Position numbers and translations under genes: made by a program. From the IMG/VR virus record IMGVR_UViG_3300021964_000170, positions 1 to 40,285 of that record: a DNA stretch of 40,285 nucleotides. One strand, given 5' to 3'. This document shows positions 33,213 through 39,048 of this stretch, piece after piece. This DNA comes from a virus. The stretch's first letter is position 1. The number at the start of each line of letters is the position of its first letter. Under the pieces are notes generated by a model that was not told where the DNA came from, did not search any database, and was given only the letters and a program-made list of their open reading frames with translations.

Positions 33213-33446
33213 TCAATATCTATTCCACCCGTTGTAGCCCATGATCTTAGGTAGTCTGTCGCCTTCTTCAGAGCGATCAAACTCCTTTGCAAACTTAAAT
33301 TCTACCTTCGCGTCTGGGTAGCAGGACTGAACAATATCTCCAGCCCTACAGATAGCCGTGTCAAAGTCCATGTTATAGACTTCGACTTTAGTGTCATGCA
33401 CTTCGTCAATACGAAAGTGTACTTCGTGTGTGTTACTGTACATCAT
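33213..33446 (-). CDS. Small hypothetical protein, 77 aa
   Basis: GAAGGAAT precedes the ATG at 33446; a second ATG follows at once. The sequence is beta-alpha: HEVHFRIDEVHDTKVEVYN, then DFDTAICRAGDIVQSCYP, then DAKVEFKF. No family recognised. The first copy of the 17-base hairpin family stands 16 bases upstream of its ATG. Confidence 0.6.
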   Translation of the reverse strand: MMYSNTHEVHFRIDEVHDTKVEVYNMDFDTAICRAGDIVQSCYPDAKVEFKFAKEFDRSEEGDRLPKIMGYNGWNRY

Positions 33447-33462
33447 TTGATTCCTTCTGATT

Positions 33463-33479
33463 GGTCCAATCGTTGGACC
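33463..33479 (-). repeat. Intercistronic hairpin, family copy 1
   Basis: Minus strand GGTCCAA-CGA-TTGGACC: seven perfect pairs around a three-base loop. It lies between the stop of the 102-aa gene (33500) and the RBS of the 77-aa gene (ATG 33446). It is one of five related elements (33463, 34851, 36416, 36735, 37736). Confidence 0.8.
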
Positions 33480-34533: not shown

Positions 34534-34611
34534 CTATATGATGTTGAGTGCTAACGCTATGTTGATGGCTAACGTAGCCACCATGCCGATAAGAATTAAT
34601 TCCGTACCCAT
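34534..34611 (-). CDS. Tiny membrane peptide, 25 aa
   Basis: ATG at 34611 overlaps the upstream stop by one base (TAATG); TAG at 34536-34534. Product MGTELILIGM then VATLAINIALALNII: hydrophobic almost throughout, one membrane span. No independent SD, so translation would depend on the upstream gene. Length makes this tentative. Confidence 0.42.
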   Translation of the reverse strand: MGTELILIGMVATLAINIALALNII

Positions 34612-34832
34612 TATGCCACTAGCTCCAACTCTCCCTGTACAGGCTGACGTTCTGGTACACGAGCGCAGAGCTTGTCCCAGTTATCGTAGCGAGACATGAA
34701 TACTTTAGCTACCTTTCTAGTCTTGAATGGGACTTGCATGTATAGCCTGCCTTCCCCATAAAGATTAACTACGTAGACAGGGCCACTCTTGAAAGGCCGT
34801 GTGGCATAGATGTTTTGATTATTTAAAGTCAT
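34611..34832 (-). CDS. Small hypothetical protein, 73 aa
   Basis: AAAGGAGAG precedes the ATG at 34832. A beta-rich basic core (GPVYVVNLYGEGRLYMQVPFKTRKVAKVFMSRYDNWDKLC) ends in QGELELVA. No family recognised. Hairpin copy 2 stands 18 bases upstream of its ATG, directly after the stop of the GP88 gene. Confidence 0.6.
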   Translation of the reverse strand: MTLNNQNIYATRPFKSGPVYVVNLYGEGRLYMQVPFKTRKVAKVFMSRYDNWDKLCARVPERQPVQGELELVA

Positions 34833-34850: not shown

Positions 34851-34867
34851 GGTCCAACCGTTGGACC
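34851..34867 (-). repeat. Intercistronic hairpin, family copy 2
   Basis: Minus strand GGTCCAA-CGG-TTGGACC, seven perfect pairs. It starts one base after the TAA of the GP88 gene and ends ahead of the AAAGGAGAG of the next gene. Confidence 0.82.
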
Positions 34868-35486: not shown

Positions 35487-36245
35487 CTATTCTCTCTCTT
35501 CACAAAATATTCCGCAATCTATTTCGTATTCCTTCATAGCTCTACCTTTAGCCTTCGGATCTAAGTCTTCTAGTTGTATGCGTTTACCTTTAACTAAAAC
35601 AAGTTTAGCTCCAATCTGTTTTGATTGTTCCAAACGATCTTGGAAAGTGTCTGGGTACATCTTGCGGACGTGATTCCAGTATGTAGGCGAACTAGCTTTA
35701 ACACAACCAATGCAGTTTGCATTCGGTAAACCATTTAAATAAGCCTCCGGTAATTTTATGCCTGCATCTTGTATAACGTCAAAGCACGCTTGCTTGTCGA
35801 AGCCACAATTTATTAATGGTGTTAATAAACTTTCTCTTTCTGTTAGCCTAAACCTATCTGCTCTTTTCGCTTCATCCGCCGTGAATCCCAAAACGGTCCA
35901 GTCAGGCTTATGAATTTCTTCCCACTCCTGTCTCGGTTTTTTCTTCAGTTCATACGTGCATGGCGCACCAGCAACACCTGACATATATTTTCTCTTATCC
36001 CAAACTTCTTTGACAGATTGGTTAGGGAAAGTTTTAGATGTCACATGCTGGATAGGATATTGTAGCCACTCAGACACATCCCGTAGAAATCTCTGATTAT
36101 CTTCATCTTCTTCTAGAATGGGATTATTTAGAATGTGTATTTCATTAGTATCTTTGTACATATCCAAAGTTATCTTTGCAGCAACAGCACTAGCTGCACC
36201 ACATGAAAACCATACAGCAATCTTTTGACCGGGTTTAACTAGCAT
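35487..36245 (-). CDS. PAPS reductase-like PP-loop ATPase
   Basis: 252 residues. A PP-loop at residues 12-20 (WFSCGAASA, a variant of SGGxDS) and the later segments VLGFTADEAKRADRF and NANCIGCVKASSPTYWNHVRK place it in the adenine nucleotide alpha-hydrolase / PAPS reductase group. C96, C178, C181, C244 and C248 could bind metal or sulphur. Members adenylate or sulphurate diverse substrates, including DNA (DndC) and tRNA; phage members are mostly uncharacterised. It is translationally linked to a 53-aa gene upstream and a GP88 gene downstream. Confidence 0.75.
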   Translation of the reverse strand: MLVKPGQKIAVWFSCGAASAVAAKITLDMYKDTNEIHILNNPILEEDEDNQRFLRDVSEWLQYPIQHVTSKTFPNQSVKEVWDKRKYMSGVAGAPCTYELKKKPRQEWEEIHKPDWTVLGFTADEAKRADRFRLTERESLLTPLINCGFDKQACFDVIQDAGIKLPEAYLNGLPNANCIGCVKASSPTYWNHVRKMYPDTFQDRLEQSKQIGAKLVLVKGKRIQLEDLDPKAKGRAMKEYEIDCGIFCEERE

Positions 36246-36396
36246 CTTCGTATCTCACTACGATGTCAAAAGAAATATTCTTTGGGTTCTTTCCCAAATC
36301 TAAAAGATAAGTGTATACGAAATCGTCTATCAACCCGCTCTCCGGGTCAGCCCATGTTTGAACCTGTTGCATCGTAACTTTTTTTGCTTGATCCAT
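36235..36396 (-). CDS. Small hypothetical protein, 53 aa
   Basis: ATG at 36396 with AAGGAGAG upstream; TAA at 36237-36235, overlapping the PP-loop gene start by 11 bases. Product MDQAKKVTMQQVQTWADPES ... LIDDFVYTYLLDLGKNP ... SFDIVVRYEDAS. It looks like a small alpha-beta fold. No family recognised. It heads the three-gene cassette with the PP-loop and GP88 genes, and hairpin copy 3 stands 19 bases before its ATG. Confidence 0.65.
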   Translation of the reverse strand: MDQAKKVTMQQVQTWADPESGLIDDFVYTYLLDLGKNPKNISFDIVVRYEDAS

Positions 36397-36415
36397 GTAA
36401 ACTCTCCTTCGGAAT

Positions 36416-36432
36416 GGTCCAACCGTTGGACC
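36416..36432 (-). repeat. Intercistronic hairpin, family copy 3
   Basis: Minus strand GGTCCAA-CGG-TTGGACC, identical in its 17 bases to copy 2. Flanks are also alike: AAAC before and ATTC after, then an AAGGAGAG RBS. Confidence 0.82.
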
Positions 36433-36442
36433 GTTTAAGGTG

Positions 36443-36493
36443 GTCTAAGTATATACACTCTTCACTACGTTAAGAGAGTGTATAGACTAAGAC
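36443..36493 (-). repeat. Long imperfect inverted repeat (arms of about 20 bases)
   Basis: Arms at 36443-36462 and 36472-36493 pair along GTCT-AGT-TATACACTCT-TT with two mismatches and a two-base bulge; the loop is nine bases (36463-36471). It fills most of the 104-base gap between the 68-aa and 53-aa genes. On the minus strand an SD-like TAGGAGG leads into it but no ATG follows. There is no U-run after it, so a plain intrinsic terminator is unlikely. Confidence 0.7.
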
Positions 36494-36500
36494 CTCCTAA

Positions 36501-36707
36501 CTAAAGCAAATTGGCAAGAGCATTGTCAAGCTCTGTCTCAAACTTTTTTTGGGCTTGCTTCTCAAGCCACTCACGTTTGCGGCCTTCGGCTATGATGTCC
36601 AGTCTATGCCATTCGGGTTGCTTGCCATCTTCGATGCCATGCAGAATGTCAAACCGAGCAAAGTTAGAGCGGATCTTAGGACCGAAGGTCTTGATGTGGG
36701 TTCGCAT
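36501..36707 (-). CDS. Basic small protein, 68 aa
   Basis: The ATG at 36707 is preferred because GGAG lies 7 bases upstream; an in-frame ATG two codons earlier is only one base from that SD. Product MRTHIKTFGPKIRSNFARFDILHG ... EWHRLDIIAEGRKREWLEKQAQKKFETELDNALANLL: helical, basic, possible nucleic-acid binder. No family recognised. Hairpin copy 4 lies upstream. Confidence 0.58.
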   Translation of the reverse strand: MRTHIKTFGPKIRSNFARFDILHGIEDGKQPEWHRLDIIAEGRKREWLEKQAQKKFETELDNALANLL

Positions 36708-36734
36708 AATCATTCTCCGAATGGAAGGCTGAAC

Positions 36735-36767
36735 AGTCCAATCGCTGGACCGTTCAACCGTAGGTTG
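36735..36767 (-). repeat. Intercistronic hairpin, family copy 4, with a second hairpin beside it
   Basis: Copy 4 spans 36735-36751, minus strand GGTCCAG-CGA-TTGGACT. Two positions that differ from copies 2 and 3 form G-U pairs in minus-strand RNA, and flanking GAAC/GTTC extends the stem. A separate CAACC-TAC-GGTTG hairpin occupies 36755-36767 just after the stop of the 195-aa gene. Confidence 0.75.
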
Positions 36768-36770
36768 GAA

Positions 36771-37358
36771 TTAGGCTGAGATAGCAACTACGTTGGTAGC
36801 TTTCTCGTCCTGACGCTGCATGGCAGCAGAGAGGTGAGCCATCATCTCTTCAACCGCTTTGCGGTCTTTAGCGACTGACAGGATTAGCGTAGCTAATTGC
36901 TTGCCGTCTAAGCTGTTAGGTTCTATCGAACCTGTTGCAGCTTTGCCGTCACTAGCTTTGCTAGACTTAGTGTCGTTGTCACTGGAAGCCGTAGGCTTAA
37001 CAGTAGCTTTCTTCCAATCGGCTAGAAGCCGAGTAGTGTGATTGCCTTTCCACTTTGTGGACTTGATGAAGTCCTGAATCTCTACGAGATTGGTAGCGAG
37101 TTGTACAGCGTCGGAACGACGCCGCTTGTCGATGTTGGCAACTCCAGCTTGTGATAACAAGCCAGACTTCGCTTTGCCTTTCAGGCCATGCTGTTCGGCA
37201 AGCTTGTTCAATTCCATTAGGAATTTACCCAACCGAACGTCGATTGACTTTCCTTCCAGAATTGCTTTAGCAAAGGCTCCGTCGAATTGACGAATAGCTT
37301 TAGCTATAAACTTACCTTCGGTAACGACTTCGGCGTTGAGAGTGATTTGGTTTGTCAT
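36771..37358 (-). CDS. First leftward early gene, hypothetical protein, 195 aa
   Basis: AAAGGAC precedes the ATG at 37358. The N-terminal half is helical and basic (GKFIAKAIRQFDGAFAKAILEGKSIDVRLGKFLMELNKLAEQHGLKGK ... ANIDKRRRSDAVQLATNL). A Ser/Thr/Lys-rich linker lies at about 118-145 (TASSDNDTKSSKASDGK), followed by a second helical segment (GKQLATLILSVAKDRKAVEEMMAHLSAAMQ). The layout suggests a two-domain DNA-associated protein. No family recognised. As the first gene after the structured control region it is a candidate early regulator. Confidence 0.65.
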   Translation of the reverse strand: MTNQITLNAEVVTEGKFIAKAIRQFDGAFAKAILEGKSIDVRLGKFLMELNKLAEQHGLKGKAKSGLLSQAGVANIDKRRRSDAVQLATNLVEIQDFIKSTKWKGNHTTRLLADWKKATVKPTASSDNDTKSSKASDGKAATGSIEPNSLDGKQLATLILSVAKDRKAVEEMMAHLSAAMQRQDEKATNVVAISA

Positions 37359-37439
37359 GGTACTAAGTCCTTTCTAAGTTTTATGTCTTTCACTAAAGTT
37401 CAAGACAGAAAACGTAAGAAAGGACGTAAGGGGTTCTGA

Positions 37440-37860
37440 GTTGGAGCTTGAAGGGTAGCTGGCAATCGAAGATTGCTGTGCATGTGCGATCTTCGGCGCA
37501 GGTCGTTTCGTTGCGGTTGCAGGATTTACAAGTAAATCCGAAACTCGTGCGCTAAACTCGCGAGACTGAGCCAACCGAATTGGTGATGGTAGGGTAGGAC
37601 AGCTAAAGCTGTATTCCAACATCTGATACTTCGACACCTTCAGTGTCGCATGGTCGGATTCGGTCTGAGATATCTGGAGGAATTGTAAATTCCTTGGAGT
37701 ATTTGAATAAATCCTTAACTCTCAATGAGTTAAACAGTCCAACGATTGGACCGATTGCTGCTCTCATGCATACGGCAACGCTTACGCATCATACGCACCA
37801 TTGCCGCGCGCACATATGAGAGAGGGGACGGGCATGGGCCACCCCCGGGTGTGACGTTAT
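37440..37860 (-). ncRNA. Candidate structured leader RNA or non-coding RNA with many hairpins
   Basis: No convincing gene occupies 37359-38204. In 37440-37860, inverted repeats follow one another: GCAATC/GATTGC (37462-37476), GGATTTAC/GTAAATCC (37522-37539), ACAGCT/AGCTGT (37599-37612), CGACAC/GTGTCG (37632-37648), AGGAATT/AATTCCT (37678-37694), TTAACTC/GAGTTAA (37715-37733), hairpin copy 5 (37736-37752) and CACCC/GGGTG (37840-37851). A nested pair CTCTCAT/ATGAGAG (37761-37767 with 37816-37822) encloses CGGCAA/TTGCCG (37773-37778 with 37801-37806). ACCGAAT (37574-37580) and ATTCGGT (37658-37664) could close a multibranch loop around two of the hairpins. If transcribed leftward it is the leader of the early operon; the strand is inferred. 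Confidence 0.5.
37736..37752 (-). repeat. Hairpin family copy 5, inside the leader
   Basis: Minus strand GGTCCAA-TCG-TTGGACT: six Watson-Crick pairs and one G-U, extended by an outer C-G pair. Unlike copies 1-4 it is not next to a start codon; it lies about 380 bases before the first leftward ATG. Confidence 0.75.
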
Positions 37861-38029
37861 TGTGTATGTACCCCTACACAGATCAGGTTTTTTATACTGT
37901 TAACCACTTATGTATTTAAGCGCTGTTATATAAAGCTGGAAAGTGTTGCATTTGTGAAACAGTATTGAGTTTGTGTACCTTATATGTGTGTCTTTTATGC
38001 AACAGTTTATATTTATTTTACGATACCGA
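37861..38029. promoter_or_regulatory. AT-rich part of the divergent control region; weak leftward promoter candidate
   Basis: This stretch has no gene. It begins with the hairpin TGTGTA/TACACA (37861-37880), followed by a six-T run at 37888-37893. On the minus strand, TATAAA (37896-37891) with TTAAAT (37919-37914) 17 bases upstream is the best -10/-35 pair I can find for the leftward operon, and the -35 match is poor. The AT-rich composition would also suit a replication origin, but I see no clear iteron array. Confidence 0.35.
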
Positions 38030-38058
38030 TTGACACGGCGGGGTAAATCGGGTATAAT
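38030..38058 (+). promoter_or_regulatory. Perfect consensus sigma70 promoter, rightward
   Basis: TTGACA at 38030-38035 and TATAAT at 38053-38058, separated by exactly 17 bases. Both hexamers match the consensus completely. Predicted start near 38065. It points to the 38205-40285 genes and presumably to the packaging and late genes beyond. It would be used by host RNA polymerase without a phage factor. Confidence 0.85.
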
Positions 38059-38074
38059 TATAGAAACTTAGGAC

Positions 38075-38142
38075 AGTGTTACAACACTAATGTTAAAACA
38101 TTTATAATTTATTAACTTAATAATACTTAAACATTAAATGTT
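38075..38142 (+). repeat. Nested inverted repeats just downstream of the strong promoter
   Basis: AGTGTT-AC-AACACT at 38075-38088 lies about 10 bases after the expected start site. Further on, AACATTTA (38097-38104) pairs with TAAATGTT (38135-38142), and between them TTATTAA-C-TTAATAA (38109-38123) forms an inner palindrome. They could be operators for a repressor or RNA hairpins in the leader. Confidence 0.6.
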
Positions 38143-38152
38143 ATAACGCTGA

Positions 38153-38178
38153 GTACAGTATATATCTGTACATATAAT
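38153..38178 (+). promoter_or_regulatory. Second rightward -10 element with an adjoining operator-like palindrome
   Basis: GTACAG (38153-38158) and CTGTAC (38166-38171) form a perfect palindrome with a seven-base AT spacer. TATAAT follows at 38173-38178, with only a weak -35 (TGAGTA, 17 bases upstream). A palindrome filling the spacer ahead of a -10 is a common operator position. Transcripts from it would start about 20 bases before the first ATG. Confidence 0.5.
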
Positions 38179-38204
38179 AAATAAATCCCATATCCGTATT
38201 GACA

Positions 38205-38411
38205 ATGCAAAACAAATCCGTAAAACTATGTCCAGAAACTAATATTCTAGATAGTTTCTATCAAGCTATCGTATCAGATAACTTACGTAGCTTACATCTG
38301 TATCATTCTGACGTGCATTATATCCGTGCTGCTTTACAAGAGCGCACGGGTAAAACATTTAAGCTGTCAGAGATTGAAGAAGCCTTAGAGGAATTTAACA
38401 ATGGCACGTAA
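38205..38411 (+). CDS. Small hypothetical protein, 68 aa
   Basis: The ATG at 38205 is chosen; a TTG two codons earlier is possible. Neither has a visible SD, which is unusual for this genome. Product MQNKSVKLCPETNILDSFYQAIVSDNLRSLHLYHSDVHYIRAALQERTGKTFKLSEIEEALEEF: helical. It overlaps the next gene by 11 bases. It is the first gene after the rightward promoters, where regulatory proteins often sit, but no family is recognised. Confidence 0.6.
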   Translation: MQNKSVKLCPETNILDSFYQAIVSDNLRSLHLYHSDVHYIRAALQERTGKTFKLSEIEEALEEFNNGT

Positions 38412-38649
38412 ACCTTTACCGCCCGGTGTAACCATTGGTGACGTAAACGAAGCTGGTGGCAATCCTATGGAACGAGTACCCAGAAATCCCCGTAAAGATT
38501 CTGCTGACGTACCGCGTAGACCGCACAGCGTTACTATTCATCAGTATGAAGACGGTGGTTATGTATGTGCGCCTAATCAACGTACAGGTAACATAGACAT
38601 GCGTAAAGACAAAGGCATGGTACGTCATACTCGTAATAATTTAAAGTAG
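38401..38649 (+). CDS. Basic hypothetical protein, 82 aa
   Basis: ATG inside the end of the upstream gene. Proline- and arginine-rich, largely disordered-looking (RKPLPPGVTIGDVNEAGG, VPRNPRKDSADVPRRPHSVTI) with a short beta stretch (HQYEDGGYVCAP). No family recognised. Confidence 0.55.
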   Translation: MARKPLPPGVTIGDVNEAGGNPMERVPRNPRKDSADVPRRPHSVTIHQYEDGGYVCAPNQRTGNIDMRKDKGMVRHTRNNLK

Positions 38650-38658
38650 TATATAGCT

Positions 38659-39048
38659 ATGGAAAAATTAGGTTCTACTAAGTACACTATGTTAGGTAAA
38701 GGGGCTTCTGCTGGGAACAAGCCTCCTAAAATTACAGCAAATGTATTAGATGCTTTTAGAAAAGCACAAAATTTAGGTGTTAATAGTTTTAGAATAGATG
38801 GCAATAATTATACTGTATCGGGGCTTAAGTCTCAATTACGTGAGATTATTGCCCCAGCAGACTTAGCAAGAATGTCTCAGGGTCAGAAAGTTCAAAGATT
38901 CAGACTACCTACAGGTGGCGGTCGTATGGACGTTATATTTGCAAACGACGGTGTGTTAGTATCTAAAAAGAAACGCCCGTCTAAAGCCAACAATAAAAAG
39001 AAATCTAGAACAGGCAGTACAAAGTATGGCTGCGGTCTGTTTAAATAA
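38659..39048 (+). CDS. Basic hypothetical protein, 129 aa
   Basis: The N-terminal part resembles a small alpha-beta domain (LDAFRKAQNLGVNSFRIDGNNYTVSGLKSQL), then FRLPTGGGRMDVIFANDGVLV. A very basic tail (SKKKRPSKANNKKKSRTGSTKYGCGLFK) follows, suited to DNA or capsid-interior contact. The end, KYGCGLFK, resembles the end of the next gene. Weak SD. No family recognised. Confidence 0.55.
   Translation: MEKLGSTKYTMLGKGASAGNKPPKITANVLDAFRKAQNLGVNSFRIDGNNYTVSGLKSQLREIIAPADLARMSQGQKVQRFRLPTGGGRMDVIFANDGVLVSKKKRPSKANNKKKSRTGSTKYGCGLFK

Follow-up and report, generated by a model that had tools for sequence, protein, structure and literature searches.

A probable structured leader RNA with a conserved core at the start of the early operon of HMO-2011-type marine phages

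The DNA analysed here, called the window, is the whole of a virus record of 40,285 bases (IMGVR_UViG_3300021964_000170). Its DNA polymerase is 62–63% identical to those of the Roseobacter phages CRP-345 and CRP-1 and of Puniceispirillum phage HMO-2011. Judged by this protein, the window therefore belongs to an HMO-2011-type marine phage, of which it is a fragment; an initial annotation had already assigned it to this group. HMO-2011-type phages have been described as forming a dominant and broadly distributed marine viral group (PMC9038755). The early and replication genes are read leftward from 37358 to approximately 17 kb, with an early gene cluster of about 20 kb, and the structural genes are read rightward from 38199. 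An integrase gene is present, and no tRNA gene was found in the window. The first early gene, gp01 (36771–37358, minus strand), encodes a protein of 195 amino acids which forms a family of its own. The hairpin-rich segment described below is located in the divergent control region between the early and the structural genes.

In this control region a perfect sigma-70 consensus sequence, TTGACA-17-TATAAT (38030–38058, plus strand), faces the structural genes, and a weaker candidate early promoter, TTGTAA-16-TATAAT (38057–38084, minus strand), faces the early genes; both are consensus matches only. Initially the segment was placed between the rightward promoter and the first leftward ATG; the map of genes and promoters agrees and shows it between this ATG and the divergent promoters. 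No terminator-like site (a G+C-rich hairpin followed by a U run) was detected in 36400–38700. AT-rich palindromic repeats of the AACATTAATGTT / ACACTTAAGTGT type, which are possible operators or iterons, occur at 38080–38175 of the window and in relatives, between the structural promoter and the first structural gene. Another palindrome, TGTGATCACA, is present in four copies in the control region of CRP-603, in two copies in those of CRP-1 and CRP-345 and in one copy in that of CRP-2, and is a probable operator of a regulator. The more distant relatives CRP-235, CRP-3, CRP-738 and CRP-212 each possess a gene-free gap of 750–860 bases inside the leftward gene cluster.

The aligned leaders of the relatives revealed a conserved DNA box, GTGGTTAACA ... 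ATCTGTGTA ... CCC..TGGCCC.TGCC, at 37830–37907 (minus strand), which covers upstream sequence and the start of the leader. The box is C-rich in the early sense, and the stretch after the ATCTGTGT box is C-rich and G-poor. The DNA box is kept, as GTGGTTAACA...ATCTGTGTA...ATACGTACACCCCC..TGGCCCCTGCC, in the clade that bears the core domain described below, and its second half is recognisable even in the core-less control regions of CRP-2, CRP-207 and CRP-603. It is possibly a promoter, a rut-like element or a packaging element.

The segment 37440–37860 was compared with dinucleotide shuffles of its sequence. It contains seven inverted repeats with perfect arms of 5 or more bases and loops of 3–8, against 2.0 ± 1.4 in the shuffles, 3 of 500 of which reached seven. 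Two perfect pairs with longer loops, CGAAGAT/ATCTTCG (37467–37473 with 37489–37495) and CTCTCAT/ATGAGAG (37761–37767 with 37816–37822), bring the number to nine, where at least eight had been reported initially. A count of seven is not unique to this segment: 37 of 399 stretches of 421 nt along the contig reach it, many of them in the early region. The contrast is sharper for longer arms: hairpins whose arms have 6 or more bases and whose loops have 3–5 peak at 7–10 per kb in the leader and the first early gene, compared with 0–4 per kb in the rest of the contig. In the window contig, HMO-2011 and CRP-1 alike, the density of short perfect hairpins is highest in the leader and the initial few kb of early genes, several-fold above that of shuffles, and few such hairpins occur in other places. 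The hairpin-rich region exceeds the segment first noted and extends into the early genes.

The structured 5' leader of the early operon, delimited with the aligned leaders of relatives, runs on the minus strand from the ATCTGTGT box to the base before the gp01 ATG (37359–37883) and folds with a z of −6.0. The minus-strand RNA of 37359–37860 folds 5.15 standard deviations better than shuffles, and the plus strand of 37440–37860 folds 2.28 standard deviations better. Sense and antisense strands of the leaders have approximately the same folding energy (mean z −5.4 and −5.1, respectively). Comparison with dinucleotide-shuffled controls had been suggested in the initial annotation; the leader of the window and those of its relatives fold better than shuffles.

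The first leader domain (37761–37822, minus strand) is closed by the CTCTCAT/ATGAGAG pair. This nested pair had been recognised before; it is part of the minimum-energy fold, and about seven HMO-like relatives carry stems of differing sequence at the same place. Across all leaders the closing stem is no longer than in shuffles, and only its position recurs, in the HMO-like leaders. A multibranch closing helix postulated between 37574–37580 and 37658–37664 was not seen in relatives and is unsupported. An inverted-repeat search located four short perfect hairpins in 37599–37733 (minus strand; 37599–37612, 37632–37648, 37678–37694 and 37715–37733). At 37367–37425 (minus strand) a long bulged hairpin ends just before the Shine-Dalgarno sequence (SD) of gp01. 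Single-sequence folds showed this hairpin in all 20 relatives examined, with arms changed beyond alignment, folding z values from −3.8 to −8.2 (mean −6.1) and 12 G-U among 767 pairs. RNAalifold recovers just its inner part, as sequence alignment of the arms fails, whereas the single-sequence folds display the hairpin. Further conserved hairpins occur upstream in the leaders of relatives; one example, CAACTG-loop-CAGTTG, is lost in the window. When the leader was folded as a whole by consensus, the core and a few short hairpins emerged; a long-range UCUGU/GCAGA pair in this fold hardly varies and is unproven.

The core motif was first spotted by eye in a comparison of the matching regions of CRP-1, CRP-345 and HMO-2011, which share the pattern GCACNARYTTCG-hairpin-TGCANNCNC...GAAACG. 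Searching 2.9 million viral contigs for this motif yielded 29 matching stretches where about one was expected by estimate. Early leaders of the same kind, that of HMO-2011 itself included, account for 28 of them; the remaining match (L032) was taken as chance. In bacterial and archaeal genomes (257 billion bases) the motif matched three times, each time on a contig from unrelated bacteria; these matches were likewise taken as chance. At the level of DNA similarity, the region gave one match of 56 nt to phage records.

In the window the core (77 nt, covariance model R1) lies at 37485–37563 on the minus strand, and a profile built without the window finds it there at an E value of 3e-12. Helix P1 is formed by GUUU (37554–37557) and AAAC (37505–37508). 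Since P1 is invariant, it is plausible but unproven. The two-base helix P2 joins 37543–37544 to 37516–37517 and reads GT/AC in the window; with AC/GT, AT/AT and GC/GC in relatives it occurs in four matched combinations. The hairpin P3, GGATTTACTTGTAAATCC (37522–37539), varies freely among relatives in its arms, its length and its loop length, and its pairing is kept.

RNAalifold found the core fold unaided. In 22 core sequences aligned by MAFFT without structure, 308 of 308 cells of this fold were paired, with two-sided changes at 7 pairs and no one-sided change. The core was recovered from at least 65 distinct relatives, in which 900 of 901 pair cells are kept, with 146 two-sided and 0 one-sided changes. 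This alignment of 65 sequences was fitted to the covariance model; a structure-free MAFFT alignment gives the same result. When the partner strand was slid by one to three bases, pairing in the 65 sequences fell to 26–56%. The covariation score was 0.41–0.43, against 0.13 for shuffled columns and at most 0.10 for slid partners. Covariation in relatives had also been named at the outset as a check, and the compensatory changes in P2 and P3 stand above both the shuffled and the slid controls. Judged from these alignments, P2 and P3 are kept by compensatory changes. The covarying pairs show zero one-sided G-U changes in the 65 sequences. The sole non-canonical core pair, T.C, changes jointly to G.T in 7 of 7 cases, and this is a G-U pair only in the early-sense RNA. 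Columns of the core are on average 78% identical, with no variation at its unpaired bases.

A coding function of the core was considered and rejected, because the open reading frames that cross it differ in frame, strand and length between relatives. No conserved reading frame spans the core, in line with the initial remark that the segment holds no convincing gene. Searches of Rfam 15 gave no match at the gathering score in the window or in 11 relatives, and permissive scans of the window and relatives returned sub-threshold matches only, so that the earlier statement that no known structured RNA class is matched holds. The article that describes the HMO-2011-type group (PMC9038755) does not contain the terms intergenic, non-coding, promoter or secondary structure. 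The leader RNA family is new. Its reading as a structured RNA or leader is upheld by a region that is kept in relatives, covaries, folds better than shuffles and lacks a conserved reading frame across its core.

The core and gp01 were found to occur together. A protein search of the viral contigs with the window gp01 alone gave no match; gp01 loci were obtained only with a gp01 alignment, and the core played no part in their choice. The gp01 proteins of relatives have approximately 190–210 amino acids and are 19–30% identical to the window protein. Of 80 loci selected solely by their gp01 protein, 66 carry the core upstream of the gp01 match and on its strand, as detected with the covariance model; some of these loci are contigs already present in the first core set, and hence not all are independent. 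Four of the 14 core-less loci end within 200 nt of the gp01 match. The others comprise a few rearranged types, some with TTGACA just before gp01. Such a TTGACA-like sequence stands shortly before gp01 in L073, L091, L092 and L115, and loss of the leader may follow a change of promoter at core-less loci. The tested regions of CRP-2, CRP-207, CRP-603, CRP-3 and HTVC033P lack both the core and gp01. No Pfam family was found for gp01. Its predicted structure is a moderate model (pLDDT 72.5) without a recognisable fold, and no PDB entry matched it at E ≤0.001.

Another explanation is that the leader works in trans, in the manner of GOLLD or ROOL, as a separate noncoding RNA of about 450 nt released from the early transcript by cleavage at the long hairpin. 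These RNAs resemble the leader as large, phage-borne structured RNAs of unknown function that also occur in marine metagenomes (PMC12286853; Rfam). The large size, the many conserved hairpins and the strongly conserved core would suit such an RNA, and its 3' end, a long double-stranded hairpin, could provide a site for RNase III. Unlike GOLLD and ROOL, the leader has no Rfam match, is a 5' leader before an early gene and occurs in a window without a tRNA gene. Moreover, it always stands directly before gp01, no terminator was found, and the known large RNAs gave no match. We consider a stand-alone RNA unlikely.

Two further hairpin types recur in the early operon. A repeat search detected five copies of a GGTCC-GGAC(C/T) hairpin in the window, all on the minus strand. 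One is situated in the leader (37736–37752), and four are found 17–28 bases before early start codons: at 36735–36751 before the gene at 36501–36713, at 36416–36432 before 36235–36396, at 34851–34867 before 34611–34832, and at 33463–33479 before 33213–33446. In 71 early regions together, GTCC-N-GGAC was observed in 114 distinct contexts, compared with 1 in 134 kb of late and replication genes. The hairpins precede an SD and ATG in 51 of 114 early-sense contexts versus 0 of 118 antisense contexts, and their centre is oriented 66 to 11. A scan of viral contigs for the GTCC hairpin of the window with its flanking DNA gave three matches.

The second type was identified by a hairpin search at starts, which demanded perfect arms. 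In the window the SD of the gene at 36501–36713 is the GGA triloop of CATTC-GGA-GAATG (36711–36723, minus strand). Many early SDs are formed in this way by the GGA of a C-GGA-G triloop hairpin whose arms change, as in AAACGGAGTTT, AATACGGAGTATT and TTATCGGAGATAA. It was found at 16 of 217 early starts versus 6 of 914 other early GGAs (P = 5e-8, indicative only, as are all P values for hairpin contexts, since related contigs are not fully independent) and at 0 of 130 late or replication starts. As read from the sequence, predicted early transcripts would carry the long bulged hairpin right before the gp01 RBS together with the GTCC-GGAC and SD-in-loop hairpins.

Hairpins that recur between early genes would also be expected of an antitermination (put/nut-like) or Rho-controlled leader, whose C-rich 5' part recruits Rho and whose hairpins allow read-through of a long early operon. 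The C-rich, G-poor stretch after the ATCTGTGT box and the length of the early gene cluster fit this explanation. The hairpins are located at SDs, rather than at terminators, which speaks against it. There is perhaps a small chance that it applies, and it is compatible with a cis-acting leader that controls translation.

A different explanation is that the hairpins act in DNA, as an origin, packaging or recombination site at which proteins of replication or recombination bind extruded or single-stranded hairpins. In favour of this, the core has exclusively Watson-Crick pairs and the long hairpin nearly so, the two strands fold equally well, the hairpins run on into coding sequence, and an integrase gene and the conserved DNA box are present. 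In addition, relatives carry some hairpin loops in reverse-complement form (CTTG/CAAG, CGTAG/CTACG and ACAG/CTGT; L029/L037, L021/L022 and the HMO-2011 GTCC hairpins L047 and L048), as if inverted or rebuilt by template switching. Watson-Crick-only stems, strand-equal folding and inverted loops fit DNA hairpins or template-switch repair as well as RNA. Loop composition gave no clear strand signal, and neither did the counts of G-U versus A-C in near-perfect hairpins. The near-perfect pairing is taken, on a weak argument, as a trait of hairpin origin or selection rather than as proof of a function in DNA, because the SD-in-loop hairpins, which are sensible only in mRNA, show it too; the argument is weak because the search required perfect arms. 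Against DNA hairpins speak further that the GTCC hairpins are oriented and stand before SDs in the early sense only, that the long hairpin always ends at the gp01 SD and that the orientation of the core relative to gp01 is constant. SD placement, the orientation bias of the hairpins and the T.C to G.T switch are strand-specific and for this reason favour an RNA of the early strand. Overall, we regard a function in DNA as rather improbable. An origin, packaging site or attachment site, as listed in the initial annotation, is disfavoured for the hairpins and stays in consideration for the upstream DNA box. A mutational process such as template switching in this part of the genome might also leave perfect arms, inverted loops and intragenic hairpins, with no function at all. 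Functionless hairpins are highly improbable, because conservation of the core exceeds that of the neighbouring gene and the unpaired core bases do not change.

In our opinion the segment is likely a cis-acting structured 5' leader of the leftward early mRNA, accompanied by translational hairpins in the early mRNA. The leader probably helps to control when and how the first phage proteins are made. It would be transcribed first, leftward, as the start of the predicted early mRNA. In the nascent RNA the core would serve as a putative binding site, most likely for a phage protein. As the core and the gp01 gene are present or absent together, gp01 is the foremost candidate for this protein. The hairpin before the gp01 SD would set message processing and ribosome access, and the downstream hairpins may place other early genes under the same post-transcriptional control. 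Early protein synthesis could in this manner be timed or shut down as a regulon, as by RegA in T4 and CsrA in bacteria. A phage-wide RNA regulon is a tentative extension of the cis-acting leader and may well prove too far-reaching: early translation in this dominant group of marine phages would be co-ordinated by a new RNA-binding protein, either gp01 or a different early protein, that reads both a new class of leader RNA and the SD-linked hairpins.

The presumed control is probably of a familiar type, as a variant of the leader and operator mechanisms already known. Like the leader, the operators of T4 RegA, gp32 and gp43 control phage early mRNAs at or just upstream of the RBS (PMC3014915). 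The RegA sites are without structure and the gp43 site is one short hairpin (PMC3014915), whereas the leader described here exceeds 500 nt and has a conserved core and repeated hairpins. No homologue of a known repressor was found. The early SD hairpins share with CsrA/RsmA targets a GGA that overlaps the SD in a hairpin loop, paired AC..GU flanks and a second hairpin just upstream, as in glgC (PMC7652899). CsrA/RsmA targets are hexaloops with the consensus RUACARGGAUGU (PMC7652899); in contrast, the early SD hairpins are C-GGA-G triloops with variable stems of 5–6 pairs. Among the early proteins of the window that were scanned against Pfam, no CsrA domain was detected. Ribosomal-protein-type and riboswitch leaders also are long structured 5' UTRs directly before the regulated gene, but no known class matches the present leader and no expression-platform terminator was found.

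The early control region of HMO-2011-type phages was previously unannotated. The conserved leader RNA may offer a starting point for learning how SAR116 and Roseobacter cells are taken over by these phages. It could be used as a clade marker in metatranscriptomes and as a defined target in the search for an RNA-binding protein. For RNA evolution it is puzzling that the covariation is purely Watson-Crick, without a single G-U intermediate in 65 sequences. Two annotated open reading frames of HMO-2011, gp72 (53665–53928) and gp73 (53776–53907), lie inside its structured leader and are probably not genes.
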